Origin: a virus
IMG/VR virus record: IMGVR_UViG_3300034012_000597
Coordinates: 1-20,010 of that record
DNA length: 20,010 nt
Strand: one strand, 5' to 3'
The position numbers and the translations under genes were made by a program. Below the pieces are notes generated by a model. That model was given only the letters and a program-made list of their open reading frames with translations, searched no databases and was not told the DNA's origin. Positions 5,003-18,118 of the stretch are shown here, piece after piece. The stretch's first letter is position 1. Each line of letters begins with the position of its first letter.

Positions 5003-5284
5003 ATGGACGAACCAACGACAAAGACGGTAAACCTTTCGTGCGTCGAACTCGTCGCCGAGAAAACCGGCGAACTCAACGGGCGCGTCGGCAAGATCGAGCA
5101 CGACCTCGGCACGCAGACCGCCGCGCTTGACGCTGCCGTCGTCGCGCTTAACGCCGGCATCGAAGCGGTCGGCCTACTTCGCTCCAACGTGCTGCGCAAT
5201 GACCTCGTGCAATGGAAGCACGCAATGTCCGCGCGCATCGCAAATCTCGAACTCGCTCTCGAAAAACTCAATTCCAGCAAATGA
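5003..5284 (+). CDS. Short coiled-coil protein, paralogue of the fibre N-terminus
   Basis: 93 aa, beginning MDEPTTKTVN, with an ATG one base after the portal stop. The body is a heptad-like helix with regularly spaced leucine, valine and isoleucine, so a coiled-coil oligomer is likely. Residues 15-68 align with residues 17-70 of the next protein with about 31 identities in 54 positions (shared blocks ELVAEK, GELN, RVGKIE). The two genes therefore arose by tandem duplication. The stop overlaps the fibre start as ATGA, implying coupled translation. It could be a partner that co-assembles with the fibre base, or a remnant of it. No enzyme motif is visible. Confidence 0.8.
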   Translation: MDEPTTKTVNLSCVELVAEKTGELNGRVGKIEHDLGTQTAALDAAVVALNAGIEAVGLLRSNVLRNDLVQWKHAMSARIANLELALEKLNSSK

Positions 5285-7233
5285 AACTCAACGAACCGCA
5301 GAACATCGAACAGAACTTTGACGAGCTCGAGCTTGTCGCCGAAAAAGCGGGCGAGCTAAACGACCGCGTGGGCAAGATTGAGAACGAGCTGGGCGCGCAG
5401 ACCAAGACGCTTGAAAGCGCGGCGATGGTCCTGGATGCCGCAATCAAAGGGCTCGGCGCGCTCAAGCATCAGGTTCTGGAGAATGACATTGGCGCGCTCC
5501 AGCTCGCGCTGAACGACAAGACCGCGCACCTCGCGCGCGAGATCGGCCGCTTCGAGTCCGCCGTCGCCGAGATCGACCGCCGCGCGGAAGCAGGCGACGA
5601 ACAGCTTGCCGCGTCGCTTCGCGACATTGCGCTCGGGCTGCGCTCGTCCTTTGACGCGAAGTCCGTCGAGATTGCTGAATGGTCCGTGCGCGTGGAGCGC
5701 GAGATTGCCGCTCATTCCGTCGCATTAGCGGCCATTCCTCCGGTCATCAAGGGCGCAGACGCAAAGCCTTTCAACCCACGCGGGGAATGGCAAGCGGGCA
5801 TGATTGCAAACTCGCTCGACGTGGTGAGCTACAACGGGTCGAGCTACATCTCCAACGAGGATGGCAACACGGAAAAGCCGACGCGCTCAACCAAGTACAC
5901 GACGCTGGCGAAACGCTCGGGCAATGGCGCGGGCGGCGCGACGGACTTCGGCAGTCTCACCGGCACGATCCTGCCGGCACAAGTGGTTCCCGGCTCCGCG
6001 ACCTACGCCGTGGGCGACGTGCTTTACGCCGGCACAACGGGCGCACTTTCCAAGCTCGCGGCGGGAACCTCGGGGCAACTTCTCTCGACGCAAGGCGCGG
6101 GCGCGGCTCCTATTTGGGTCAGCGCAACCGGCGGCGCAGGCGACGTGAACGGTCCCGGCAGCGCAACCGACAACGCGATTGTGCGCTTCGACGGCACGGG
6201 CGGAAAAACGGTTCAAAACTCGACCGTAATCATCGGAGACACTGGCGCAATCACTGGCGTCGAGAGTCTCAAGTCGTCCACTAGCGGCGGTCTTGCTATC
6301 ATAGGCAGTGGAGGCACGACCGTTGCCACATTCGGTCCCGGCGCAGGCACAGGCGTCGCGTTCAATTCAAGCGGGCTAACGAGCGTCAACTCCGTCACGG
6401 CAGCATCCACCACCGACCTCACCCTCGCAAGCGGCAGCACGGGCGCGAGTCTGGTGCTGGGGCAGGGGACGACGGCGGGCACTATTACGCTCACACCAAC
6501 CGGATCAGGAACGGTCGCTATCGCTGGAGCCAAAAAACTCCGACCTAGTGGCGACATTTATTTTTCCGCAACGAATCCTTTCGTCTATACCGACATTGCC
6601 ACAAATCTTACCGGGCTGGAGATTTCAGGGAACTCGGCATATCTGAATTTGTGGACCAATAATGTCGAGCGCGCCCGCCTCACCTCCACCGGCAACCTCC
6701 TCATCGGCACCACGACGGACGCAACCTCCCTCTCAGGCGGTCTCGTCGTTAACGGCTCAGGCAGCGGAGCAGCGGCTAGCGGTCCCGGCACCGGCGCACT
6801 CCGCGTCACGGGCGGGAGCTACGTAAGCGGGGCGGGGTATTTCGGGGGGACGATCAACACCACAGCCGCCACCGGCAACCCCACCATTTCCGCAACGATC
6901 ACGGCGGCAGGCGGAGCAGGTCAATTCCCGCTTTTCCAGCTCATCGACTCTCGCGCCAGTGGGGCCACTTGGAACATGGAAAACGGCAGGACGCTCGGTT
7001 CATTCGCGCTGCGCTCGTCAGGCAGTGGCGATGTCCTCACCATGACCAGCACCGGAGCCGCCACCTTCGCGGGCGCGGTGACGGTGGCGGGCACCGTCAT
7101 CCACACGCTCAGCGCCACCCCCGCCAGCGCCTCTGCCACCGGCACCGTCGGCACCATGTCGTGGGACGCCAACTACATTTACATCTGCACCGCCACGAAT
7201 ACGTGGAAACGCGTCGCCATCGCGACGTGGTAA
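5281..7233 (+). CDS. Fibre protein with coiled-coil base and carbohydrate-binding-like module
   Basis: 650 aa from the ATG at 5281, inside the ATGA overlap; an upstream in-frame ATG at 5212 lies within the preceding gene. Residues 1-150 are a long coiled coil. Residues about 163-210 (FNPRGEWQAG, DVVSYNGSSYIS) resemble the aromatic CBM5/12 sugar-binding module. The remainder is rich in Gly, Ser, Thr and Ala in short beta repeats, with LTSTGNLLIGTTTDA at about 464-478, ending in a small compact motif (SWDANYIYICTATNTWKRVAI) typical of fibre C-termini. It probably forms a trimeric fibre that binds surface glycans. It sits between portal and protease rather than beside the tail tip, so a head-attached fibre is possible. 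A side tail fibre encoded out of place is the alternative. Confidence 0.85.
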   Translation: MKLNEPQNIEQNFDELELVAEKAGELNDRVGKIENELGAQTKTLESAAMVLDAAIKGLGALKHQVLENDIGALQLALNDKTAHLAREIGRFESAVAEIDRRAEAGDEQLAASLRDIALGLRSSFDAKSVEIAEWSVRVEREIAAHSVALAAIPPVIKGADAKPFNPRGEWQAGMIANSLDVVSYNGSSYISNEDGNTEKPTRSTKYTTLAKRSGNGAGGATDFGSLTGTILPAQVVPGSATYAVGDVLYAGTTGALSKLAAGTSGQLLSTQGAGAAPIWVSATGGAGDVNGPGSATDNAIVRFDGTGGKTVQNSTVIIGDTGAITGVESLKSSTSGGLAIIGSGGTTVATFGPGAGTGVAFNSSGLTSVNSVTAASTTDLTLASGSTGASLVLGQGTTAGTITLTPTGSGTVAIAGAKKLRPSGDIYFSATNPFVYTDIATNLTGLEISGNSAYLNLWTNNVERARLTSTGNLLIGTTTDATSLSGGLVVNGSGSGAAASGPGTGALRVTGGSYVSGAGYFGGTINTTAATGNPTISATITAAGGAGQFPLFQLIDSRASGATWNMENGRTLGSFALRSSGSGDVLTMTSTGAATFAGAVTVAGTVIHTLSATPASASATGTVGTMSWDANYIYICTATNTWKRVAIATW

Positions 7234-7254
7234 ACCGTCAGGCTATTTCCAACC

Positions 7255-7512
7255 ATGAACGATCCCATCATCACCACTACGTTGCAGCGCATCCAAACCG
7301 ACCCGCAAGGCGAGGCTCCTATCGCCACGGCCTTCTTTGAAAAGAAAACCATCATCGACGGGCAAACCTACGTCGCGCCTTGGACGCAGGTCACTTGGCC
7401 GCTATTGAGCGACAAGACCGTGACCGTCGGCGGGCAGACATACACCTATGCCGAAATCTCGGCCGCGGTTACGGCCATCGCGTATCGGGAAAACGGTGCC
7501 GCCACCGTCTGA
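7255..7512 (+). CDS. Small protein of unknown function downstream of the fibre
   Basis: 85 aa starting MNDPIITTTLQRIQ at an ATG 21 bases after the fibre stop, with no Shine-Dalgarno sequence. The sequence looks like a small beta-rich folded protein: TIIDGQTYVAPWTQVTWPLL, then VTVGGQTYTYAEISAAV. A GQTYxxA phrase occurs twice, suggesting a weak internal repeat. There is no signal peptide or membrane segment. Its place makes a fibre-associated or fibre-folding role conceivable, but nothing in the sequence demonstrates that. I do not recognise a family. Confidence 0.7.
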   Translation: MNDPIITTTLQRIQTDPQGEAPIATAFFEKKTIIDGQTYVAPWTQVTWPLLSDKTVTVGGQTYTYAEISAAVTAIAYRENGAATV

Positions 7513-7525
7513 AAGGATGCCAACC

Positions 7526-7690
7526 ATGACCAAGAAAAACGCTCTCGAAATCTTCGCACAGATCGCCGGCCAGTTTCGCGCGACTCCGCAGGAACATGCG
7601 ACGATAAAAGCCGCGTTCGACCTGCTCGCGTCGTTGCCAGAACCGACCGCGACCGACGCGAAAGGGACTGACACGGTGACGCTCCCGTGA
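7526..7690 (+). CDS. Very small hypothetical protein
   Basis: 54 aa starting MTKKNALEIFAQIAG. The frame extends upstream, but two nearby ATGs (7517 and 7526) compete. AAAGG at 7512-7516 is correctly spaced only for 7526, so that start is chosen. The N-terminal 35 residues look like a small amphipathic helical hairpin, followed by a T/D-rich tail. The stop overlaps the next start as GTGA, placing it in the same translational unit as the S26-like gene. No function is recognised. Confidence 0.6.
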   Translation: MTKKNALEIFAQIAGQFRATPQEHATIKAAFDLLASLPEPTATDAKGTDTVTLP

Positions 7691-8157
7691 ACCGCATCGG
7701 CCTAGTTCTCGCGCTCGTTCTCGGGCTGGCTGCGTTGCTCGTCGTGAGCAAGCGCAAGCAGGCCGACCTTGCGCGAGGACTGCCGCCGCGGGTCGTTTGC
7801 GCGTCGCAGGCCGATGCGCTCGCGCAGGCTGGCGCGGGCGCGACGCCGATCCTCGGGACTGGCTCGATGGCGCCGTGGATTCCCGCGGCGCTGCCGGGGC
7901 TGAACCCGCGGACGACCGTCGTGGCCTATGCTGCGATGGACGGTGCGGCGACGTTCGCGGGCGTCACGGTCGGCGCCCTTGTCGTTTATGTTCCGGCGTG
8001 GGCGTCCGGCGGGCACGTCATGCATCAAGCCGCCGCGCGCGACTCTGGCGGCTGGATTATGTCAGGGCTGCACAATGAGCGCAGCGAGACCTGGGAACGC
8101 GTGACGGCGGCGAACTACGTCGGGACCGTGGCGCGGGTTTACGTTTGGGCGCAGTAA
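7687..8157 (+). CDS. Membrane-anchored S26 signal-peptidase-like protein
   Basis: 156 aa from a GTG at 7687 overlapping the previous stop (GTGA). Residues 4-20 are one hydrophobic segment followed by KRK, a signal anchor that would place the rest outside the cytoplasm. The soluble part follows the S26 plan: GTGSMAP at 57-63 with S60 as candidate nucleophile, a beta segment VGALVVYVP near 95-103 matching the usual GDxVVY strand, H113 in VMHQ where the Sec11-type enzymes carry a catalytic His, then SGLHNERSE and a closing YVGTVARVYVW strand. The expected late aspartate is not obvious and may be replaced by E131 or E134, so activity is uncertain. It may process a phage or host envelope protein, or be a non-catalytic relative. 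Confidence 0.55.
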   Translation: MNRIGLVLALVLGLAALLVVSKRKQADLARGLPPRVVCASQADALAQAGAGATPILGTGSMAPWIPAALPGLNPRTTVVAYAAMDGAATFAGVTVGALVVYVPAWASGGHVMHQAAARDSGGWIMSGLHNERSETWERVTAANYVGTVARVYVWAQ

Positions 8158-8159
8158 CC

Positions 8160-8807
8160 ATGCGCACGTCGTCGCCACTCGCCCTCTGTCTGCTCGCGCT
8201 GTTGTGCGGGTGTTCGCTGCCGCAATGGCGCGTCGGGCAGAAGACCGTTCCGGTGGATGCAGGCCCATCCGTGCAGGCGGTCGAGTCGCAGAGGCGGGCG
8301 GCTGCGCTCATCGTGGACCTGTCTGCGTCGCTCTCGGCGGATCCCGGCAAGCAGGTGGCGGACATTCACGCCGTTGCCGTGCCGCTTTCCGTTTCACTTG
8401 GCGAACCGCTGAAACGCGCGACCGTGTTTCAGGCGCCGGACGTGGTGACGGCGCTGCGGAAGTCGAGCCTGGACGCGCAGGCCAAGGCCGAGAAGTGGCG
8501 CGAGTTCGCGCGCAAGCACGCCGGCACGCCGCTCGAAGGGACGGGCGTGAACCTCGCGGGGCCGGCTGGACTGCTCGGGCTGATTGGCGTCGTGGCTGCG
8601 TGCATCGCGTTTCCGCCCATCGGATACATTCTGTTGCGCGCGCTGCCGGTGCTGTGGGGATTCTTTCGCTCCACGACCTCGGCCATCTCGGAATTTACCA
8701 CGGCCAACCCCGATGAGGGCGAACGGCTCAAACTCACTTTATCCCGCAAGATGGACGCCGCTCACAAGCGGCTCGTTAAAACTCGAAAAGCAACCTTCGC
8801 ACCATGA
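8160..8807 (+). CDS. Putative lipoprotein with internal membrane segment
   Basis: 215 aa from the ATG at 8160; a TTG at 8145 in the same frame lies inside the previous gene and is not preferred. Residues 1-18 form a lipoprotein signal: a short positive start, a hydrophobic core, and LCGC with C18 as likely lipidated residue. Residues about 137-170 are strongly hydrophobic (AGLLGLIGVVAACIAF then GYILLRALPVLWGFF) and probably cross the membrane once or twice. The C-terminus is charged and basic. The combination suits an envelope protein, perhaps a lysis accessory or superinfection-exclusion factor, but no family is recognised. The stop overlaps the next start (ATGA), so the two are probably translated together. 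Confidence 0.65.
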   Translation: MRTSSPLALCLLALLCGCSLPQWRVGQKTVPVDAGPSVQAVESQRRAAALIVDLSASLSADPGKQVADIHAVAVPLSVSLGEPLKRATVFQAPDVVTALRKSSLDAQAKAEKWREFARKHAGTPLEGTGVNLAGPAGLLGLIGVVAACIAFPPIGYILLRALPVLWGFFRSTTSAISEFTTANPDEGERLKLTLSRKMDAAHKRLVKTRKATFAP

Positions 8808-8998
8808 TTGACCGCATACAATCTCACACGGGCCAGATAGTCGGGTCCGCGGTTTCCAGCGGCGGTACGATCACGGCGGTTGCGGCTTGGCAGTCGCAGC
8901 TTGCGTGGGGCGTGACGATCACGGCGGGCGTGGTTGCGATTGTGTCGGGCCTTTTGACGATTCGCAGCATCTTGCGCCGCGACGTGGCAAGTAAATAA
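8804..8998 (+). CDS. Small holin-like membrane protein
   Basis: 64 aa beginning MIDRIQSHTG, in ATGA overlap with the lipoprotein gene. Two hydrophobic stretches (about 12-28 and 34-53) are followed by a basic tail, RSILRRDVASK. This size and layout match small phage holins, which make membrane lesions at lysis. There is no endolysin beside it in this window, so the call rests on topology alone. The first hydrophobic stretch is weak, and a single-span membrane protein is possible. It is in the same reading frame as the protease that follows, separated by one TAA and nine codons. Confidence 0.5.
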   Translation: MIDRIQSHTGQIVGSAVSSGGTITAVAAWQSQLAWGVTITAGVVAIVSGLLTIRSILRRDVASK

Positions 8999-9025
8999 CG
9001 CTTTCTGACATTCGCAGCATCTGCG
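8951..9025 (+). repeat. Imperfect direct repeat between holin-like and protease genes
   Basis: A 26-base segment at 8951-8976 recurs at 9001-9025, with a 13-base exact core (ATTCGCAGCATCT at 8960-8972 and 9010-9022) and a few single-base insertions or deletions. The first copy lies within the 3' end of the holin-like gene; the second ends exactly at the base before the protease ATG. It marks the downstream edge of the accessory island and may record a duplication or recombination join. Confidence 0.75.
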
Positions 9026-9964
9026 ATGCAGACAGCAACCAGCTTTCGACAATTCGCCGCGACTGCGCAAGCAAGGGTTAACCCTGCCGACGGCGTGATT
9101 TACGGCGTTTCGCTGATCACCGAGGGGCCGGCGCTGGGCCACGGAGTCTACATTGACTCGACGACCTTGCAGCAAGTGAAGACCGCCGCGGGAATGTATT
9201 CGGGCGGGCTGAAGGTAAAGATGGATCACGGCGGGGGCGCCGGTGACATCGTGGGCTTTATCGACAATCTGCGGATCGCGGGCGCGAAGCTTCTCGGAGA
9301 TTTTCACCTGCTGCAATCTTCCGAGCATCGGCAATACATTCTCGAAATTGCCGAGAAGATTCCCGACACGTTCGGGCTTTCGATCGCCTTTTCCGGTCCG
9401 TCTGAAATCGGCGTGGACAAGCGCGCGATGCAGCGTTGCACCGAAATTTACTCGGTGGACCTCGTGAGCGAACCCGCCGCGAATCCCGATGGGCTCTTTT
9501 CCCGCATGAAACTACAAGCCGAGGAACCTTCGGCAAACATCGAAATCGAACTCCCTATGAACGAAGAAATGAAAAAGGCCATTGAGGCCATGATCCAGTC
9601 CGCGCTCGCCAACGTCGGTGAGCGTATGTCGAAGCTCGAAGGCGCAATGCCTCCTGCCGTTGACCCTAAAGTAATCGCCGCCTCCTCGCAGGCCGACGCC
9701 GTGCAGCTCGCCGCAAAAGAAGGCGCGCTCTCTGCGCTCAAAGAGTTCTCGAAGAGCTTCGGCGCTCCTCCCGCGCTCGCGACTCCCGCTCCTGCCGCGG
9801 CGCCAGTCGTTACCTCGGACAAGTTCGAGCAGTTCGTCGCGAAGAAAGCCGCGGAACTGAAGGGCGACAAAGCTGCCGCCATCTCGTTCTGCATCAAAAA
9901 CCACTCGGCCGAATACATCGCCTACCGCGCCCGCGTTGTCGCTGGCGAAGTCGTCAAACTCTAA
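9026..9964 (+). CDS. Capsid maturation protease fused to scaffold-like domain
   Basis: 312 aa. The N-terminal half (about 20-160) matches the prohead serine protease pattern: KMDHGGG with H68, a DTFGLSIAF segment with S119, and RCTEIYSVDLVSEPA with E140, giving a plausible His-Ser-Glu arrangement as in HK97-type proteases. From about 178 the protein becomes helical, charged, then proline/alanine-rich, the expected composition of a scaffold. An in-frame ATG at 9557 (residue 178) could give a separate 135-aa scaffold, as lambda does with C and Nu3, though it lacks a clear ribosome binding site. The enzyme would cleave scaffold and capsid proteins during head maturation. Decoration and major capsid genes follow directly. 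The ATG abuts a direct repeat. Confidence 0.88.
   Translation: MQTATSFRQFAATAQARVNPADGVIYGVSLITEGPALGHGVYIDSTTLQQVKTAAGMYSGGLKVKMDHGGGAGDIVGFIDNLRIAGAKLLGDFHLLQSSEHRQYILEIAEKIPDTFGLSIAFSGPSEIGVDKRAMQRCTEIYSVDLVSEPAANPDGLFSRMKLQAEEPSANIEIELPMNEEMKKAIEAMIQSALANVGERMSKLEGAMPPAVDPKVIAASSQADAVQLAAKEGALSALKEFSKSFGAPPALATPAPAAAPVVTSDKFEQFVAKKAAELKGDKAAAISFCIKNHSAEYIAYRARVVAGEVVKL
9557..9964 (+). CDS. Possible internally initiated scaffold protein
   Basis: 135 aa in the protease frame from the ATG at 9557, beginning MNEEMKKAIEAM. It is a long helix, then an A/P-rich linker (APPALATPAPAAAPV) and a basic helical end, resembling capsid scaffolds. Lambda makes its scaffold Nu3 from an in-frame start inside the protease gene. 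No strong Shine-Dalgarno sequence precedes this ATG, but most genes here lack one. Existence as a separate product is inference. Confidence 0.4.
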   Translation: MNEEMKKAIEAMIQSALANVGERMSKLEGAMPPAVDPKVIAASSQADAVQLAAKEGALSALKEFSKSFGAPPALATPAPAAAPVVTSDKFEQFVAKKAAELKGDKAAAISFCIKNHSAEYIAYRARVVAGEVVKL

Positions 9965-10354: not shown

Positions 10355-11320
10355 ATGTACACTAATTCTGCTGCCGTTTTCCGCGGCGATGTTGCCGGCG
10401 TCCTCGAACAAGCCAAAGACTGGGAGACTGGTCTTATCGGCTTGGGCGTCATGCCCGTGCTCAATGTTCCCGTGCGCGCCGGTCAGTATCCGTCGTTCCT
10501 GCTCAAAGAGGGCCAGCTCCTCAAGAGCGAGGTCAAGAACCGCGCTCCGTATTCGTCCTTCGCTCGCGGCACGCGCTCCTTCAATCAGGAGACCTACGCC
10601 GCTTTGGAGTACGGCTACGAAGAGGCCGTTGACGACACTGTGATCGCCGACGTGTCGCGCTTCTTCGACGCCGAAGTCGTGGCCGCGAAACTCGCCAAGC
10701 GCAAACTCCTGCTCGCTCACGAGCTGCGCGTTGCCGCCGCGATCTTCAACACGTCGAACTTCACCTCGACGAACAGCGGCACGGCCTACACCGTCGCCAA
10801 CCTCGCGACGTTCGACGCCGCTCTCGACGTGCAGGACGCGATTGACCGTCTGCTCGCCAAGGGCGAGAGCACGAACAACCTCAAGGTTGTAATCCCGTAT
10901 CCCGTGTGGACCCGCATCCGCGCCTCGACGAAGTTCCAGAACCGTCTCCGCGGCGCTGGTATGTCGTCCGACACGATCCTCAACGCGTCGCTCGCGAACG
11001 CTGCCGAGGTCTTCGGTGTTGCCGAGGTGCTGATCGGCCGCACGAGCTACGACACCGCCGCCGAGGGCATCGCGTTCTCCGCCGGTAACGTCTGGGCCAA
11101 TACCTACATCTGGGTTGGCTCGGTCACCGAGTCGTCCGGTGGCTTCTTCGGCGGCGGCGCCGGATTTACCCTCAACTGGAGCGAATACGGTCCCGCGGTC
11201 GGCGTGTTCACCTACCGCGACGAGACGATCAAATCGAACATCGTGCGCGCTTCACACTACGTGTCCGAGAAGATCGTCAACGGCAACGCGGGCCAGTTGG
11301 TTGCTACCCAGTACAGCTAA
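10355..11320 (+). CDS. Major capsid protein
   Basis: 321 aa, close to lambda gpE (341 aa). It builds the icosahedral shell. The sequence starts MYTNSAAVFRGDVAGVLEQA with no long cleavable scaffold region, consistent with a separate scaffold in the preceding gene. The order is helical N-arm, a strand-rich region around ARGTRSFNQETYAALEYG, a long helix with KLAKRKLLLAHELRVAA (the spine helix expected of the HK97 fold), a central domain with VVIPYPVWTRIRAS, and a C-terminal strand region rich in Trp, Tyr and Gly. It follows the decoration gene and is closed by a strong terminator 23 bases downstream. The HK97 fold is inferred from context and secondary-structure pattern rather than from a motif. 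Confidence 0.9.
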   Translation: MYTNSAAVFRGDVAGVLEQAKDWETGLIGLGVMPVLNVPVRAGQYPSFLLKEGQLLKSEVKNRAPYSSFARGTRSFNQETYAALEYGYEEAVDDTVIADVSRFFDAEVVAAKLAKRKLLLAHELRVAAAIFNTSNFTSTNSGTAYTVANLATFDAALDVQDAIDRLLAKGESTNNLKVVIPYPVWTRIRASTKFQNRLRGAGMSSDTILNASLANAAEVFGVAEVLIGRTSYDTAAEGIAFSAGNVWANTYIWVGSVTESSGGFFGGGAGFTLNWSEYGPAVGVFTYRDETIKSNIVRASHYVSEKIVNGNAGQLVATQYS

Positions 11321-11342: not shown

Positions 11343-11379
11343 GCCTCGCGCTCCAAAAGGGCGCGAGGCTTTTCGTTTT
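11343..11379 (+). terminator. Intrinsic terminator after the major capsid gene
   Basis: A perfect 9-base-pair GC-rich stem (GCCTCGCGC at 11343-11351 with GCGCGAGGC at 11361-11369), a 9-base loop, then TTTTCGTTTT at 11370-11379. This is a textbook rho-independent terminator. It would make the capsid genes the most abundant late messages, with the genes beyond depending on read-through, antitermination or another promoter. Confidence 0.88.
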
Positions 11380-11398
11380 GACGCCTCCGCAAGCGTCA
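11379..11398 (+). repeat. Short inverted repeat abutting the glycosyltransferase start codon
   Basis: TGACGC at 11379-11384 pairs with GCGTCA at 11393-11398; the last A is the first base of the ATG. It occupies the whole 18-base interval between terminator and gene and could form a small hairpin that hides the start codon. No Shine-Dalgarno sequence or promoter fits here. A functional role is uncertain. Confidence 0.5.
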
Positions 11399-13098
11399 TG
11401 CCACGAATCTCCCTTTGCGTCATCTGCGGCAACGAGTCCGAGCACATCGCCGCAATGCTCAATTCGTTCGCGCCGTGCTTCGACGAACTCTCGCTCGTGC
11501 GAGCCATCGGCAAGCGCGAGCCGGACGACACGATGCAACAGGCGCAAGCGTGGTGCGCGGCGAACGGCAAAGCGTTTCTCTTTGGCGAATACCGAAACGG
11601 ATTTACGGCGCGCGACTGGGATCACGTCGATTCATTCGGGGCTGCGCGCAATCAGGCGTTTCGCCAAGCGACCGGCGATTGGCTTATCTGGGCTGACTGC
11701 GACGACACGTCGGAAGGCGCGGACAAGCTGCGCGCTGATCTCTCCGCGATCCCCGCGGACGTCTCGATGGTGCGCTACGCCTATGACGTGCGCGGAAGCG
11801 GGAAAAAGCTTATGCGCGAGCGAGCGATTCGCGCGACCGCGTTTCGCGATGGGCGCATCTGGCATCATGCAGTCCACGAAAACCTTTTAATTCTTCCCGG
11901 CGACAAGCACGAGGACCGGCACGCGTGCGTCTGGATCCACTCGCCCAACAGCGTAAAGCGCGAGAATCGCCGTCGAAATCTCCGCATCCTCGGCAACAGC
12001 GTGATCGAGTGCGCAACGCAGTATTTCTACATCCACCAAGAGCACTATTGCAACCAGGACAAGCAGGCCGCGGAGCAGTTCGGCAAGCTCGCGCTGGGCT
12101 TCCCGAATCTACAACCGTCGTTTCGCTACGAGACGCTTCTCAACCTCGCGCGCATCTGCGGCAATTACCGCGAGGCGATGACGTATTGTATGGAGGCGCA
12201 CGGAATCTTTCCGTGGTGCCGAGAGGCGATCGCCGCAATGATTCTTCTTCACTTCGAGAAACGCGATGCGCGGCGCGCGACATGGTGGGCCGACCGTATG
12301 CTCGAACTTCGCGAGCCAAGCGAAGCCGAGAGGCCGTGGACGCATGAGGCGAAGTATTACGGCTGGGCCGGCTTCGACATTGCGGCTCGGGCGCACCGCA
12401 TGGCGGAAAACGCGAACAAGGCGAGCGAGCTTCAACGCAAGTTTCACGCGGGAGTAACGCCGACGATTTCGCTCATCCACGCGACGCGCGGTCGCTCAAC
12501 GAAGGCGGTCGGATGCCGTGAGTCTTGGATGAACACGGCGGCGAATCCCTGGAACGTCGAGCACGTCTTCGCGGTGGATTCCGACGACAAGGAAAGCGTC
12601 GCGATGGCGAAGCAGTTCGTCAGCGTGACGAGTCACGGTCGGTCATGCGTTGCAGCGTGGAATCTTGCGGCAAAGTCGGCGCGCGGAGATTTAATCGTGC
12701 AGCTTTCCGACGATTGGTTGCCGTCGCCGAACTGGGACTTGAAGTTGCTGGACCTTGTGAAAGGACGCGACCTCGCGCGCGAGCAAATCGTGATCGCGGT
12801 GAACGACGGTCATCGGCGCGATGACCTGCTCTGCATGGCGATTCTTTCCCGCGGCCGGCTTGAGGCCCAGGGCGAGCTTTTCTTCGACGGCTACGAATCC
12901 GTTTTCAGTGACAACGAGTTCTCCGTGCGCGCCTTCGCTGACGGCGTGGTGATCGACGCGCGCGACAAGATCACGTTCGAGCACGCACACCCGGCTTTCG
13001 GCAAGGCGCCGATGGATAAAACCTACGAGCACAACAATTCAAGCGAACGCTACAAGGCCGGCAAGGCGTTGTTCGACGCTCGCAACCCATCAAAATGA
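11398..13098 (+). CDS. Two-domain GT2-type glycosyltransferase with TPR-like centre
   Basis: 566 aa. It carries two GT-A domains. The first (about 1-190) starts ISLCVICGNESEHIAAML and has GAARNQAF then WLIWADCDD, with DCDD at 100-103 as nucleotide-sugar/metal motif. The middle (about 195-350) is helical and TPR-like, as in GT2 enzymes of the SunS type. The second (about 354-560) starts TISLIHATRGRS and has GDLIVQLSDDW with SDDW at 437-440 and a later FDGYESVFSDNEF acceptor-region segment. It probably transfers sugars to a virion protein or host surface glycan; the target is unknown. The fold begins immediately at the ATG, which supports this start just after the terminator. The stop overlaps the methyltransferase start (ATGA). 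Confidence 0.85.
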   Translation: MPRISLCVICGNESEHIAAMLNSFAPCFDELSLVRAIGKREPDDTMQQAQAWCAANGKAFLFGEYRNGFTARDWDHVDSFGAARNQAFRQATGDWLIWADCDDTSEGADKLRADLSAIPADVSMVRYAYDVRGSGKKLMRERAIRATAFRDGRIWHHAVHENLLILPGDKHEDRHACVWIHSPNSVKRENRRRNLRILGNSVIECATQYFYIHQEHYCNQDKQAAEQFGKLALGFPNLQPSFRYETLLNLARICGNYREAMTYCMEAHGIFPWCREAIAAMILLHFEKRDARRATWWADRMLELREPSEAERPWTHEAKYYGWAGFDIAARAHRMAENANKASELQRKFHAGVTPTISLIHATRGRSTKAVGCRESWMNTAANPWNVEHVFAVDSDDKESVAMAKQFVSVTSHGRSCVAAWNLAAKSARGDLIVQLSDDWLPSPNWDLKLLDLVKGRDLAREQIVIAVNDGHRRDDLLCMAILSRGRLEAQGELFFDGYESVFSDNEFSVRAFADGVVIDARDKITFEHAHPAFGKAPMDKTYEHNNSSERYKAGKALFDARNPSK

Positions 13099-13715
13099 CA
13101 CATCACGACGGCTACGAAATCTGCAAAGAAACGGGCGCGCTAAAATCAATCAGTCGCGAGATTACGGCGCACTACGACCACGCCTACGTTGCGCGATACG
13201 AGAATTATCCGCAGGCCGAGCTTTCAAGGATTCGCGCCGAAATCGTGATGAAGCACGCCGGCCAATTCGAGAACATTTGCGACGTCGGATTTGGAACGGG
13301 CGCTTTCCTCTCCGAGATCGGCCACAGGAACCCGATGGCAACGCTTCACGGCTTCGACGTCTCGCCCTATCGGCCTCCGCATTTCGTTCGCATCGAGCCG
13401 GACTGGCAGGAAAAGGAATGGGATGTTGTGACGTTCTTCGACTCGCTCGAGCACTTTGTCGATTTGCCGAAGGTCCGAGCTAAGGTCGTCGTCGTTTCCG
13501 TGCCGTGGTTTGACTGCGTGGCCGGCGAGAAATGGTTCGCGCAGTGGAAGCACCGCCGCCCCGGCGAGCATCTTTGGCACTTCACGTCGCTCTCGCTCTC
13601 TCGCGTGTTTCAGCGGATGGGAATGCGGGAGGTCTATGCCGGCAACCCCGAGGACGCGATCCGCATCGGCGACGGCAAGCGCCCGAACATTCTGACGATG
13701 GCGTTTGCCCGATGA
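13095..13715 (+). CDS. SAM-dependent class I methyltransferase
   Basis: 206 aa. It has the Rossmann methyltransferase motifs: DVGFGTGAF from residue 63 (SAM-binding glycine loop), HGFDVS with acidic D88 for the ribose, and VVTFFDSLEHF at 111-121 as motif IV. A later EHLWHFTSLSLSRVFQRMGM segment is typical of the Methyltransf_23 group, whose members often act on sugars, lipids or small metabolites. No target-recognition domain for DNA is visible. Being between two glycosyltransferases, joined by ATGA overlaps on both sides, it most likely methylates the glycan being built or its precursor. The exact substrate is unknown. Confidence 0.87.
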   Translation: MTHHDGYEICKETGALKSISREITAHYDHAYVARYENYPQAELSRIRAEIVMKHAGQFENICDVGFGTGAFLSEIGHRNPMATLHGFDVSPYRPPHFVRIEPDWQEKEWDVVTFFDSLEHFVDLPKVRAKVVVVSVPWFDCVAGEKWFAQWKHRRPGEHLWHFTSLSLSRVFQRMGMREVYAGNPEDAIRIGDGKRPNILTMAFAR

Positions 13716-14425
13716 AAATCTGCTTGGCCTATCCGCAGCGCCTCGGCGACATCATCCGCATCCTGCCGATCGCGCGGCACTTCGCGGCCGACGGAAACAA
13801 GGTGCTCGTCGAGTGCCTGCCGCCGTATCACGAGTTCTTCGATTGCGTGAGTTACTGCCGGCCGTCTCTGCGCGCGGAACGCGATGCGCACCGCTTCGAC
13901 GTGGTGCTTGACCTCGAAATCTGGCCGAATCGGTTCAACGAGTTCGTGGCATCCGGCAAGACCTGGCTGGACTTCGTTTACGGCTCAAGCCCGATGCTCG
14001 CCGGCATTGACCGAAAGCCAGTGTTCGACCTGATCGACGAGATGCCGGGGCTTGCCGACTACGGCTTGCCGGCCGACGCGAGCGTCTTTTCGCCGTTCGG
14101 TTATTCGCAGCGCGACAGATACACGCCCAAAAGCCTCGCCGAAGAGGCAAAGAAGCGCATTTGCGGGCCTTTCGTGACCTTGGCTGACCCTATTCATGCC
14201 GACGCGCTTTCGAGAGCTGGAATCGCGCGCAATTCAATCCTGACCGCGCATCGTTCGTCGCACCTGCCACGCCTACTTCGCGATGCGAAAAACGTCTTCA
14301 CGATCAATTCCGCGCCGTCGATTATCTGCGGGGCCGTGCGCAGCGAGTTTTGGCACGTCCTCGGAGGCGAACCGCAGAACGACGCGATCTCGCCCGCCTC
14401 GCGCATTGTGACATTCGGCGCCTAG
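13712..14425 (+). CDS. GT9/heptosyltransferase-like glycosyltransferase (compact)
   Basis: 237 aa from the ATG at 13712, overlapping the methyltransferase stop (ATGA); a longer in-frame reading from 13532 lies inside that gene. The N-terminus KICLAYPQRLGDIIRILPIA is the GT9 signature first strand and loop, seen in ADP-heptose:LPS transferases. DVVLDLEIW and a late FTINSAPSIICGAV match the positions of the family's DLQ and acceptor/nucleotide segments. Normal GT9 enzymes have two Rossmann domains and about 320-350 aa, so this one is shortened, mainly in the C-terminal half. It may be a minimal phage version or degenerate. It closes the three-gene sugar cassette, two bases before the stopper gene. 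Confidence 0.7.
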   Translation: MKICLAYPQRLGDIIRILPIARHFAADGNKVLVECLPPYHEFFDCVSYCRPSLRAERDAHRFDVVLDLEIWPNRFNEFVASGKTWLDFVYGSSPMLAGIDRKPVFDLIDEMPGLADYGLPADASVFSPFGYSQRDRYTPKSLAEEAKKRICGPFVTLADPIHADALSRAGIARNSILTAHRSSHLPRLLRDAKNVFTINSAPSIICGAVRSEFWHVLGGEPQNDAISPASRIVTFGA

Positions 14426-14427
14426 GC

Positions 14428-14745
14428 ATGGCCGTCCGCGACTTCGACCCGACTCAGCTCTCGACCGACTTTGACGCGATCTTGTCGCAAGCCGGAATCA
14501 CGTTCTCGTTTCTCGGCGCAAGCGTCACCGGCGTCTGGTCATCCTCGCGCGATGCGTTCGCCGACTTTGAGAACCAGCGCCGCGACGAGTCGAAGTTCAC
14601 CGTGTTTCTGACCACGAGCCAAGTCGCGACAACGCCTGCGCAAAGCCAGACCCTCGTGCGCGCAGGCGTCACTTACTTCGTCGAGCAGGTGCGATTTGAC
14701 GCCGAGGGAACGGGCGTCGAGATGGATGTCTGCAAGGTGATATGA
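14428..14745 (+). CDS. Head-tail stopper / FII-like completion protein
   Basis: 105 aa from the ATG at 14428; lambda gpFII is 117 aa. An upstream in-frame reading from 14350 overlaps the GT9 gene and is not preferred. The protein has an N-terminal helix (MAVRDFDPTQLSTDFDAIL), then beta strands including KFTVFLTTSQVA, GVTYFVEQVRFDAEG and VEMDVCKVI, the pattern of small head-tail joining proteins that close the portal channel. It lies between head genes and the gpZ-like tail gene, as FII does. The stop overlaps the next start (ATGA). Assignment depends on order and strand pattern. Confidence 0.7.
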   Translation: MAVRDFDPTQLSTDFDAILSQAGITFSFLGASVTGVWSSSRDAFADFENQRRDESKFTVFLTTSQVATTPAQSQTLVRAGVTYFVEQVRFDAEGTGVEMDVCKVI

Positions 14746-15620
14746 ACTTCTCGGTCAAAGTGGACTCGGCGAAGCTGGAGTTCGCGCTGGCTCGGCTGGC
14801 TGACGCTGCGCGCGTGGAGCTGGGCCAAGTGATCAAACAGGAGGGCGGGCTCGTCGCAAAGACGCTGATGCTGATTATCCCGCCGACGACCGGCAAATCT
14901 TCCGCGGGCAACCCCGGCTCTGGAGGCATGAGCACGGCGGCAAAGCAACAGGGCGAGAGCGCAATCAAGGGCGACCTATTCGGCGGCAAGAAGGCGTCAA
15001 GCGCGCGCTACTCGTCGATTGGCTTGTTTCAGCGCATCGGCAGCTCCTCGCTAGTTCCTCCGCGCAACGGCATCGGCGAAACCGTCGGCGTGCGCCTGGG
15101 CTGGGAGCAGTCAAAGAAGATTCGCATCATGTCGCGTTACTGGAAGCCGGCCGCGTCTGCGTCTGAAATGTCGGCTTTCCACAAACGCTATCGCAACGCG
15201 CGCGGGCGCACCGGCAACGTGTCGCAAAGCTCAATCGGCAGGTGGCAGGTTCAAGATCAAATGTGGATTCAAGACGCCTCGGCAGATGCGTATTTCAATC
15301 TCGTCAAGGCGCGCGTCGGCTGGAGCAAATCAGGATTTGCCGCGGCTGCGCTCGCTTGCGGCATCCGCGTTCCCGCGTGGATTCGCCGGCACGCTTCCGC
15401 GTCTGGCACGACCTCGTTTAACTTCGGGAGAAACCCTTACATCGTCGGGACCGCGACGAACACGAAGATTCCCGACATCAATCGTTACGTCGATAACGCG
15501 ATGGCAATTCGCGTGAAGGTCACGCAGCAGAAGGTTGACCGCATCCTCGCGAACAAGGCCGTCAATCTGGGCTTCGCCAAAGTGGACGGCGCCGGGAAAA
15601 TCCAATACAAAGAACCATGA
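14742..15620 (+). CDS. Minor tail protein Z-like / tail completion
   Basis: 292 aa, starting MNFSVKVDSAKLEFALARL in ATGA overlap with the stopper gene. The opening amphipathic helix and the early AKTLMLIIPPTTGK segment are typical of gpZ and HK97 gp10-type completion proteins, which bind the tail end that joins the head. The protein is basic with many R and K. It is longer than lambda gpZ (192 aa): an inserted, tyrosine/arginine-rich middle (about 130-170) has no obvious counterpart. The following gene overlaps by ATGA and is the tail terminator, matching Z-U order. Confidence 0.75.
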   Translation: MNFSVKVDSAKLEFALARLADAARVELGQVIKQEGGLVAKTLMLIIPPTTGKSSAGNPGSGGMSTAAKQQGESAIKGDLFGGKKASSARYSSIGLFQRIGSSSLVPPRNGIGETVGVRLGWEQSKKIRIMSRYWKPAASASEMSAFHKRYRNARGRTGNVSQSSIGRWQVQDQMWIQDASADAYFNLVKARVGWSKSGFAAAALACGIRVPAWIRRHASASGTTSFNFGRNPYIVGTATNTKIPDINRYVDNAMAIRVKVTQQKVDRILANKAVNLGFAKVDGAGKIQYKEP

Positions 15621-16048
15621 GCACACGCACCGACATCCGCAACGCAATCGGGACCGCGCTGACCACGGCGGGCGTCGTCGTGACCGCAAATCTCATCCGC
15701 GGGCGAAACAACACGATCGCCAGCGTGAGCTTTCCGTCCGCTGCGGTTTACGCGATCAATGAGCAGATCGAAGTTCGCACGATGCCGATTGGCCGCGGCG
15801 AGCAGTTTCGCCAGCTCCAAGTCATGGTCGATTATTTCACGGCGCAGACCTCGGCCACCATCATTGACGACCTATTTGATACGGGCTCCGCCGCAGTTGA
15901 GGCCGCAATCTTGGCAGACCCGACCCTTGGCGGAGCGTGTCGGGACACGCATTTAACGTCCGTCGATTATGTGATCGAACCCGACGAGAATAAACGATGG
16001 GGCGTCGCTCGGCACACTTTTAACTGCATCTACCTAACCACCGAATAA
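15617..16048 (+). CDS. Tail terminator U-like protein
   Basis: 143 aa, close to lambda gpU (131 aa). It begins MSTRTDIRNAIGTALTTAG, a helix common to the family, followed by strands AAVYAINEQIEVR and RQLQVMVDYFTAQ, a helix IIDDLFDTGSAAVEAAIL, and a final strand region. This helix-strand order is that of tail terminator proteins, which cap the growing tube and set its end. It overlaps the gpZ-like gene by ATGA, and the tail tube gene begins one base after its stop. Confidence 0.82.
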   Translation: MSTRTDIRNAIGTALTTAGVVVTANLIRGRNNTIASVSFPSAAVYAINEQIEVRTMPIGRGEQFRQLQVMVDYFTAQTSATIIDDLFDTGSAAVEAAILADPTLGGACRDTHLTSVDYVIEPDENKRWGVARHTFNCIYLTTE

Positions 16049-16049
16049 C

Positions 16050-16436
16050 ATGGCCAACCAACTCGGACGCTCTGGCGTCGTCAAAATCTCGTCCACCACC
16101 GTCGGCGAGCTGCGCAACTACTCGCTTTCGCACTCGTCCGATACCGTTGAAGATTCCGTCATCGGCGACACCTACCGCACGCGGCGCGGAACGATGAAAA
16201 CTTGGAACGTGTCCGGCTCCGTTTACTGGGACCCGATCGACGCCGGCCAAGTGCTTTGCTCCATCGGCTCGTCCGTGACTGTGAACCTTTATCCGATGGG
16301 CATCACGGCGACTTCGACTTACTACTCCGGTGGCGGCGTGGTCACGAAGTTCGACATCACCGCGGCTTTCGACGGCATGGTTGAGGGCTCCATCTCCATC
16401 GAAGGCAACGGCGCACTCTCGACTTTGACAGTCTGA
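16050..16436 (+). CDS. Major tail tube protein V-like
   Basis: 128 aa. It polymerises as stacked hexamers around the tape measure. It has the beta-rich pattern of siphovirus tube proteins: GVVKISSTTVGELRNYSL, a short EDSVIGDTYRTRRGTMKTW loop, VSGSVYWDP, and a closing GSISIEGNGALSTLTV strand pair. Lambda gpV is about twice as long because it carries an added Ig-like surface domain; that is absent here, so the tail surface should be plain. The ATG lies one base after the preceding stop without a Shine-Dalgarno sequence. Confidence 0.83.
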   Translation: MANQLGRSGVVKISSTTVGELRNYSLSHSSDTVEDSVIGDTYRTRRGTMKTWNVSGSVYWDPIDAGQVLCSIGSSVTVNLYPMGITATSTYYSGGGVVTKFDITAAFDGMVEGSISIEGNGALSTLTV

Positions 16437-16768: not shown

Positions 16769-16926
16769 TCCACGGCGGGGAGGCTTCCGACTTCCTCGCC
16801 GTTTATGCTATTGCGGATCGCCTCGGGAAGTTCGCGCACGAAGTCGCAGCCATGCCGGTTCAAGAATTGAACGGCTGGCTCGCTTACATAGACCACCAGA
16901 ACAAACTCAACAAACCAAATGGCTAG
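16445..16926 (+). CDS. Tail assembly chaperone GT fusion by -1 frameshift
   Basis: After the AAC codon ending at 16765 the ribosome moves back one base and reads from 16765 to the TAG at 16924-16926, adding 53 aa to give about 160. The extension begins LIHGGEASDFLAVY and ends PVQELNGWLAYIDHQNK plus a short tail; this phrase is typical of gpT extensions, which contact the tape measure. It has no ATG-started reading of its own covering the region, so without frameshifting the 150 bases before the tape measure gene would be non-coding. It overlaps the tape measure start by eight bases. This is the conserved lambda-type arrangement. Confidence 0.88.
16759..16801 (+). promoter_or_regulatory. -1 programmed ribosomal frameshift signal
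   Basis: The slippery heptamer A AAA AAC occupies 16759-16765, read in zero frame as CTA AAA AAC followed by a TGA at 16766. Seven bases later, 16773-16781 pairs with 16793-16801 in a 9-base-pair GC-rich stem with one G-U pair. It can extend by two more pairs to a 7-base loop. Slippery sequence, spacer and stem have canonical geometry. In E. coli the AAC form usually shifts less than AAG, so efficiency depends on the host. Confidence 0.88.
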
Positions 16927-18118
16927 CGCAACATTCCAGCTCAGGGCGGCAGACGAGACGGCGCAGGCGTTTGCGAGCGTGCAGAACAATTTGCAGCGAC
17001 TCAAGAATACGTCGAATGAAGCCGGCCGTGCGTTGACCAAAAATCTCGACGTGAAGGACGCGATGCGCTCCTTAGCGATGGCCGTCGGACTGAGCGCGGA
17101 CAAGATCGCGAACAAGATTGCGGAGTTTGTGACTGGTCAAACCGATGAGGTTGTGAAGATGCAGGAAGAACTTGTGAAGGCCGGGGATGAAGCCGCCGCA
17201 AGCGCGGCGGCACTTGCGAAGGCGAGAAATACCGACACGCAAAATCTCGCCATTCTGATTCGTGAAGAGCAGAGGTTGAGTCAGATAATCAAACAAAAGC
17301 CTGCGGATTTAGCGGCTCAAGTTGCGGTTCAAAAAGCCGTCAATTCCTTAAACCTGACGCAAATCGAATTGGTTAAGGCGCAGCGCGCGGAGATGGATAA
17401 ATTGATTGCGGCAAATCAGGAGGCCAACAAGCAACGGAAGGAGCGCATGGATGTTGAGCGAGAGCTTGACGTCACGCTTGGATTTCAAGCCGACAAAGAA
17501 AAGCTCTTGAACCAGCTTTGGGATGCTCGCGGCGTTTACCTCAAGCAGATCGGTCAACTGAACGGAGAGGATTTGGCGACCGTATCGCAGCGAAACGCAG
17601 CGGAGCGCAACTACATCGACATCACGAAACAGATAATTCCGCTTGAGCAAGAGCGCCGAAAGCTCGCAATGGATGCCGGCCAAGCAATCGCGCAAGGATT
17701 CGAGGACGCGATTATCTCTGGCAACAATCTGCGCGAAGTCCTCAAGGGCTTGGCGCAAGACCTGATTCGCCTCGTGTTTCGCCAGCAAATAACGCAACCG
17801 CTGGCTTCCGCGGTCGGAAGCATCTTCGCCGGCTTCCGCGCCGAGGGCGGTCCCGTTGGCGCCGGCAGCGCGTACATGGTCGGCGAGAAAGGGCCGGAGC
17901 TTTTCGTTCCTGGCTCGTCCGGCAGCATCGTGCCTAATGGCGCGATGGGCGGTGGCAGCGGCAAAGGCGGCTCGTCGGTAAACATCACCTACAACATCGC
18001 GTCCGGCGTCTCGCGCTCGGACCTCGTGCCGATCCTCGACCAAGAGCGCAAGCGGCTCAAGGCCGAGATTCCAGACATGGTTCGGCGCGGCGGCTCTTAC
18101 CGCGCTGCGTTCGCTTAA
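16919..18118 (+). CDS. Tail tape measure protein (short)
   Basis: 399 aa; lambda gpH is 853 aa. It sets tail length and travels with DNA into the host. It starts MASATFQLRAADETAQAFAS, followed by long charged helices with coiled-coil character (about 70-230). A conserved tape measure C-terminal part follows: GFEDAIISGNNLREVLKGLAQDL at about 260-282 and then GGPVGAGSAYMVGEKGPELFVPG at about 311-333, a hallmark of this family. The C-terminus is Gly/Ser-rich then basic. At the usual 0.15 nm per residue it would specify a tail of roughly 60 nm. Its ATG lies inside the end of the gpG-T reading frame. Confidence 0.9.
   Translation: MASATFQLRAADETAQAFASVQNNLQRLKNTSNEAGRALTKNLDVKDAMRSLAMAVGLSADKIANKIAEFVTGQTDEVVKMQEELVKAGDEAAASAAALAKARNTDTQNLAILIREEQRLSQIIKQKPADLAAQVAVQKAVNSLNLTQIELVKAQRAEMDKLIAANQEANKQRKERMDVERELDVTLGFQADKEKLLNQLWDARGVYLKQIGQLNGEDLATVSQRNAAERNYIDITKQIIPLEQERRKLAMDAGQAIAQGFEDAIISGNNLREVLKGLAQDLIRLVFRQQITQPLASAVGSIFAGFRAEGGPVGAGSAYMVGEKGPELFVPGSSGSIVPNGAMGGGSGKGGSSVNITYNIASGVSRSDLVPILDQERKRLKAEIPDMVRRGGSYRAAFA

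Follow-up and report, generated by a model that had tools for sequence, protein, structure and literature searches.

A glycosyltransferase-methyltransferase cassette as a putative virion-glycosylation module in the structural operon of an uncultivated phage lineage

The window analyzed here, a virus record of 20,010 bases from IMG/VR, carries a cassette of three genes between the major capsid gene and the head-closure gene that is best explained as a putative virion-glycosylation module forming a fixed part of the structural operon of its lineage. This reading, to which we assign a probability of about 0.65, draws on sequence conservation, predicted structures and analogy with known phage and bacterial systems. 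The original prediction had proposed that the virion itself is glycosylated. Its main line is supported by a core glycosyltransferase that is invariant across relatives, by the protein-acting relatives of that enzyme and by a precedent in mycobacteriophages, while three of its details, namely, coupling to the capsid gene, the argument from late timing and the methylated sugar, are corrected below.

The gene order of the window broadly follows the lambda plan, with genes for the terminase large subunit, portal, protease, decoration protein (named by position and size), major capsid protein, the cassette, head closure, tail terminator, tail tube and tape measure. The position of lambda FI is taken by three genes, all on the plus strand, confirming the predicted placement between the capsid and stopper genes. 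These encode a GT2 family glycosyltransferase (GT2; 11398..13098, 566 amino acids), a class I S-adenosylmethionine (SAM)-dependent methyltransferase (13095..13715, 206 amino acids) and a glycosyltransferase-like protein with a predicted GT9 fold (13712..14425, 237 amino acids). Both junctions within the cassette are 4-nucleotide overlaps (ATGA), and only 2 nucleotides separate the stop codon of the GT9-like gene from the start of the head-closure gene. The start of the GT9-like gene is placed at ATG 13712, which fits its homologues; the program-made open reading frame (13532-14425) is over-long, and its first 180 nucleotides fall within the methyltransferase gene. The upstream boundary of the cassette is the major capsid gene (10355..11320, plus strand), which matches phrog_1005 (major head protein) at 3e-29 and for which 80 relatives were retrieved per scan in viral contigs. 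Downstream, a lambda FII-like head-closure or stopper protein (14428..14745, plus strand) matches PF05354 (Phage_attach, the lambda FII family) at 5e-5, slightly below the curated cut-off, and phrog_82 (head closure) at 0.03. It is followed by a neck gene (14742-15617) and by the genes for the tail terminator (15617-16048), tail tube (16050-16436) and tape measure protein (16919-18118), the last of which encodes only 399 amino acids and would imply a short tail. The region between portal and protease (5212-8807) holds, in an unusual position, one gene that is fibre-like (phrog_17312) and a pair (7687-8157 and 8145-8807) whose products have segments of transmembrane strength and which are possible lysis genes.

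The enzyme types originally predicted for the cassette, a double GT-A glycosyltransferase, a methyltransferase and a GT9-like enzyme, fit the results of profile and structure searches. GT2 comprises a GT-A domain (residues ~1-180), a helical region resembling tetratricopeptide repeats (TPR; 184-350) and a second GT-A domain (357-562). It matches PF00535 in Pfam over two stretches (2e-12, above the cut-off), and in PHROGs its N-terminal half matches phrog_13126 (1e-10) and its C-terminal half phrog_14945 (6e-20). The best PDB profile matches are to GmaR (1.3e-9) and then SunS (4e-4). Foldseek places the AlphaFold2 model (pLDDT 87.8) closest to SunS (9.6e-14) and ThuS (2e-11), followed by matches that include double-domain polysaccharide synthases. 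The first-domain catalytic motifs DCDD and VHEN are kept in 103 of 103 GT2 homologues; the PF00535 match, the universal DCDD motif and the structural match to SunS indicate the GT-A fold with an acidic DxD-type motif that characterizes the SunS/GmaR-like GT2 family. GmaR and SunS act on polypeptides, which suggests a protein acceptor for the phage enzyme as well. The likeness is one of catalytic fold, and in Foldseek it reaches polysaccharide enzymes too (K4CP, TarS and TarP). The phage GT2 shares its type of GT-A catalytic domain with the peptide S-glycosyltransferases SunS and ThuS and with the flagellin glycosyltransferase GmaR, but differs from them in having a second GT-A domain fused to it (or a separate gene instead) and in its setting within a phage structural operon.

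The methyltransferase matches PF13489 (2e-13) and phrog_6564 (3e-13), and the alignment of its homologues contains a conserved CDVGFGTGAFL motif; a PDB sequence search gave no match. For the GT9-like protein, sequence searches of Pfam, PHROGs, NCBIfam and PDB gave no match, and the GT9 Pfam model matched none of 12 homologues. Its AlphaFold2 model (pLDDT 91.3) nevertheless matched GT9 structures in Foldseek with E values from 1e-6 to 1e-5, including 3tov (1.2e-6), WaaC (4e-6), TibC (8e-6) and also WaaF, at query TM scores of 0.58 to 0.68. An RLGD motif is invariant among the homologues, with LGD near the N terminus. As modelled, the protein has the GT9 fold and is not a GT9 sequence member: it has the fold and the N-terminal LGD in common with the heptosyltransferases WaaC, WaaF and TibC, but has only 237 amino acids against roughly 300 to 390 in the matched chains and lacks a Pfam match. 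TibC, among these fold matches, is a protein heptosyltransferase.

The predicted coupling of the cassette to structural genes holds for the head-closure and tail genes but not for the capsid gene. An intrinsic terminator with an 11-bp GC-rich stem, a 5-nucleotide loop and a T-rich tail (11343..11378, plus strand) lies directly 3' of the capsid gene and is the best of 6 sites (z -2.98). A hairpin with a T-run follows the capsid gene in 117 of 117 relatives compared with 14 of 354 random windows, and the post-capsid hairpins of relatives differ in stem sequence. Conservation of this strong terminator sets the cassette apart from the capsid gene and places it in one group with the genes for head closure and tail. 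From its position alone, the cassette would be expressed late. A second small hairpin (GACGC...GCGTC) occupies 11379-11397, directly 5' of the GT2 start codon, where there is no obvious Shine-Dalgarno sequence; this hairpin could limit translation of GT2.

Relatives were fetched by capsid similarity, not by glycosyltransferase similarity, for most loci, and a few were added through GT2 and GT9-like queries. The sample comprised 118 distinct capsid genes, 115 of them with enough downstream sequence to be informative; the three left out had 56 or 125 nucleotides downstream or an HNH gene filling 736 nucleotides. A search of related phages for the same placement, as the original prediction had proposed, found GT2 as the next gene after the capsid gene in all 115 informative loci (with an HNH-type gene between them in some), 94 of which also extend to the head-closure gene. 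Among close relatives, dN/dS for the three cassette genes was 0.09 to 0.21, like that of neighbouring structural genes, and indicates purifying selection. The recurrence of the same gene in the same place, combined with these dN/dS values, indicates more than chance placement. Pairwise distances of GT2 correlated with those of the tail terminator (0.87), head-closure (0.85), decoration (0.83) and capsid (0.74) proteins. Given its invariant placement, conserved motifs, dN/dS and distance correlations with structural genes, GT2 behaves as a core gene of the structural block and not as a moron.

The correlation of GT2 with the neck gene was 0.43, and the neck gene itself correlated with its neighbours at only 0.23 to 0.43. 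Two very different allele types of this gene (~23-33% or 51-62% identity to the window) occur in otherwise close relatives, a pattern of recombination or exchange at the neck. In about 12 relatives (L010, L024, L067 and others), an HNH/endonuclease VII-like gene encoding 227 to 242 amino acids lies between the capsid gene and GT2 and is possibly a homing element. The capsid search found no relative in the isolate collection. The sole match in the genome collection was a 28-kb contig (L103; VGHX01000030.1) from a Betaproteobacteria MAG bin, of which 18.5 kb was read and found to be all phage-like; the bin may be either a hint to the host or a binning artefact. Verrucomicrobia phage P8625 was discarded as a host clue, with a TerL identity of 22% and no annotated glycosyltransferase.

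The genes between GT2 and head closure vary by branch. The methyltransferase and GT9-like pair of the window occurs in 28 loci, some of which end early after the methyltransferase gene and some of which carry an extra glycosyltransferase. A separate glycosyltransferase of 212 to 214 amino acids takes this place in 62 loci, a GT2-family protein of 196 to 204 amino acids in 4, a DUF5672 protein with a GT9-like protein in 5, and a Methyltransf_24/TylF methyltransferase with a further glycosyltransferase in 2; other partner sets are single cases. In all 62 loci with the separate 212- to 214-residue enzyme, GT2 is shortened and the SDDW motif of its second domain is lost, whereas SDDW is kept in the 41 other GT2s (41/41); in this type, the second activity of GT2 seems to have been transferred to the separate enzyme. 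Partner architecture required 7 changes on the capsid tree (minimum, 6; mean after shuffling, 36.5) and 6 on the head-closure tree (minimum, 5), showing that it is inherited with the phage. A glycan-switching locus with frequent partner swaps, for which many changes would be expected on the capsid tree, was rejected on this count. Since the architectures track both trees, any glycan type, if one exists, would be a stable trait of each branch. The methylated sugar that had been predicted is consistent with the methyltransferase gene in the branch of the window but does not extend to a general trait, as in most of the lineage sampled a methyltransferase is absent from the cassette site and another partner gene is present.

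The closest anatomical parallel is found in mycobacteriophages. Che8, Corndog and Myrna are described as having glycosylated proteins, and the capsid and tail tube are the reported targets of Corndog-type enzymes, in accounts that follow Freeman 2023 (PMC11600133, PMC12363180). In the cluster O Corndogvirus Idergollasper (ON260829), the head block runs portal, O-methyltransferase, hypothetical protein, glycosyltransferase, glycosyltransferase, protease and capsid, with the O-methyltransferase and glycosyltransferase genes tightly overlapping as in the cassette. The window likewise encodes its own predicted glycosyltransferases (PF00535 at 2e-12 and the modelled folds) and combines them with a methyltransferase within the head block as in Corndogvirus, a combination that is not universal among such modules. 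The Corndogvirus genes differ in lying between portal and protease rather than between capsid and head closure, in having a TylF-type methyltransferase and in their mycobacterial host. Homology between the cassette proteins and the Corndogvirus glycosyltransferases or methyltransferase was not detectable (hhalign E values of 0.08 to 0.17 against the two Idergollasper glycosyltransferases), so the likeness would be one of anatomy and probable function. The function does not depend on homology to Corndogvirus glycosyltransferases, and such homology does not define virion-glycosylation modules, because mycobacteriophage glycosylation enzymes themselves fall in more than one structural cluster (PMC12363180). 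Che8 and Myrna, too, are reported in the same account to encode glycosyltransferases that glycosylate virion proteins; the Che8-related phage Maravista differs from the window in that its glycosyltransferase genes are not part of the structural block but are found toward the 3' genome end (PMC11256854). The podovirus lineage of ctKR88 and L249 (MW202524) resembles the window in carrying a GT2 plus TPR enzyme, other glycosyltransferases and one or more methyltransferases directly 3' of its capsid gene, but its capsid belongs to the SU10_MCP family, and a GT4 domain is fused where the window's enzyme has its second GT-A domain. This unrelated lineage would be a case in which a module of this kind reached such a position independently.

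In the scheme that we infer for the protein acceptor, the order of sugar addition, the methyl target and the function of the glycan, the SunS/GmaR-like GT-A domain of GT2 with its helical half probably starts the glycan by attaching a sugar to a virion protein that is exposed. Another sugar would then be added by the second GT-A domain of GT2 or, in the majority of relatives, by the separate small glycosyltransferase. In the branch of the window, the GT9-fold enzyme may add a further residue, and the methyltransferase would cap the glycan. That residue is possibly a heptose, which would come from nucleotide sugars of the host, because the cassette contains no gene for sugar-nucleotide synthesis. 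Such a glycan may shield the particle or alter adsorption.

The main rival, which we consider rather unlikely, is a late modification of the host cell surface by these enzymes that would keep progeny virions or competing phages from binding to the dying cell or to debris from it. The original prediction had argued against a host-surface target on the grounds of late timing, which is insufficient alone: in 'Gratiaviridae', a glycosyltransferase gene lies close to those for portal and capsid, and the authors of that description proposed that its product modifies the host capsule late in infection (PMC8008677). Phage glycosyltransferases often serve surface change, and the fold of the GT9-like protein matches the lipopolysaccharide heptosyltransferases WaaC and WaaF. 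Against such a role, none of the three cassette proteins has a hydrophobic segment of transmembrane strength (maximum 19-residue hydropathy, 1.01 to 1.13), and a GtrA flippase (PF04138) was found in 0 of 19 long relatives in a search whose controls matched in 7 of 14 genomes. Integrases of the PF00589 family were found in none of the 19 viral records, which span 24 to 47 kb and are possibly incomplete; a lack of integrase would make lysogenic conversion unlikely. With no GtrA, membrane glycosyltransferase or PF00589 integrase found, the system is unlikely to perform Gtr-type serotype or O-antigen conversion. Host-surface modification also predicts neither the constant association with head and tail genes nor the protein-acceptor type of the best match of GT2; virion glycosylation is more likely because of that invariant link and those protein-acting relatives.

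A role in decorating the bases of phage DNA, giving hypermodified DNA that resists restriction, is very unlikely. Phage glycosyltransferases can glycosylate modified cytosines (Pyle 2024, as described in PMC12619734), one relative (G004) has a TET/JBP gene, and another (L235) encodes beside its terminase genes a Mom-like DNA modification protein (8771-9706; phrog_1384, 3e-48). Yet among the 19 long relatives, whose records are possibly incomplete, TET occurs in 1 and thymidylate-synthase-type hydroxymethylases in 0, which makes DNA hypermodification improbable as a general role, whereas GT2-family domains occur in all 19; the cassette, moreover, lies in the structural block and not in a replication block. 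Slightly less probable still is that the cassette is a selfish or accessory element that entered a permissive gap and contributes nothing to the particle. The HNH-type insertions at this site and the variable partner genes are in keeping with a moron; the presence of GT2 in every informative locus, its intact motifs throughout and its evolution locked to that of the structural genes are not.

Virion glycosylation has previously been shown for a few mycobacteriophages, and the putative module described here differs from the known ones in its enzymes, its position and its obligate presence across a lineage. Throughout this uncultivated lineage, a glycosyltransferase shows the invariance of a structural gene, with partners that vary by branch. 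A stronger version, which we regard as distinctly doubtful, would make glycosylation by GT2 an obligatory assembly step in a widespread uncultivated lineage, with the glycan on a head or connector protein and the downstream enzymes setting a branch-specific glycan inherited with the capsid. The conservation of GT2 suggests that particle glycans may be a regular trait beyond phages of Actinobacteria, and the lineage offers a clear target for studying what such glycans do where no animal immune system is involved.
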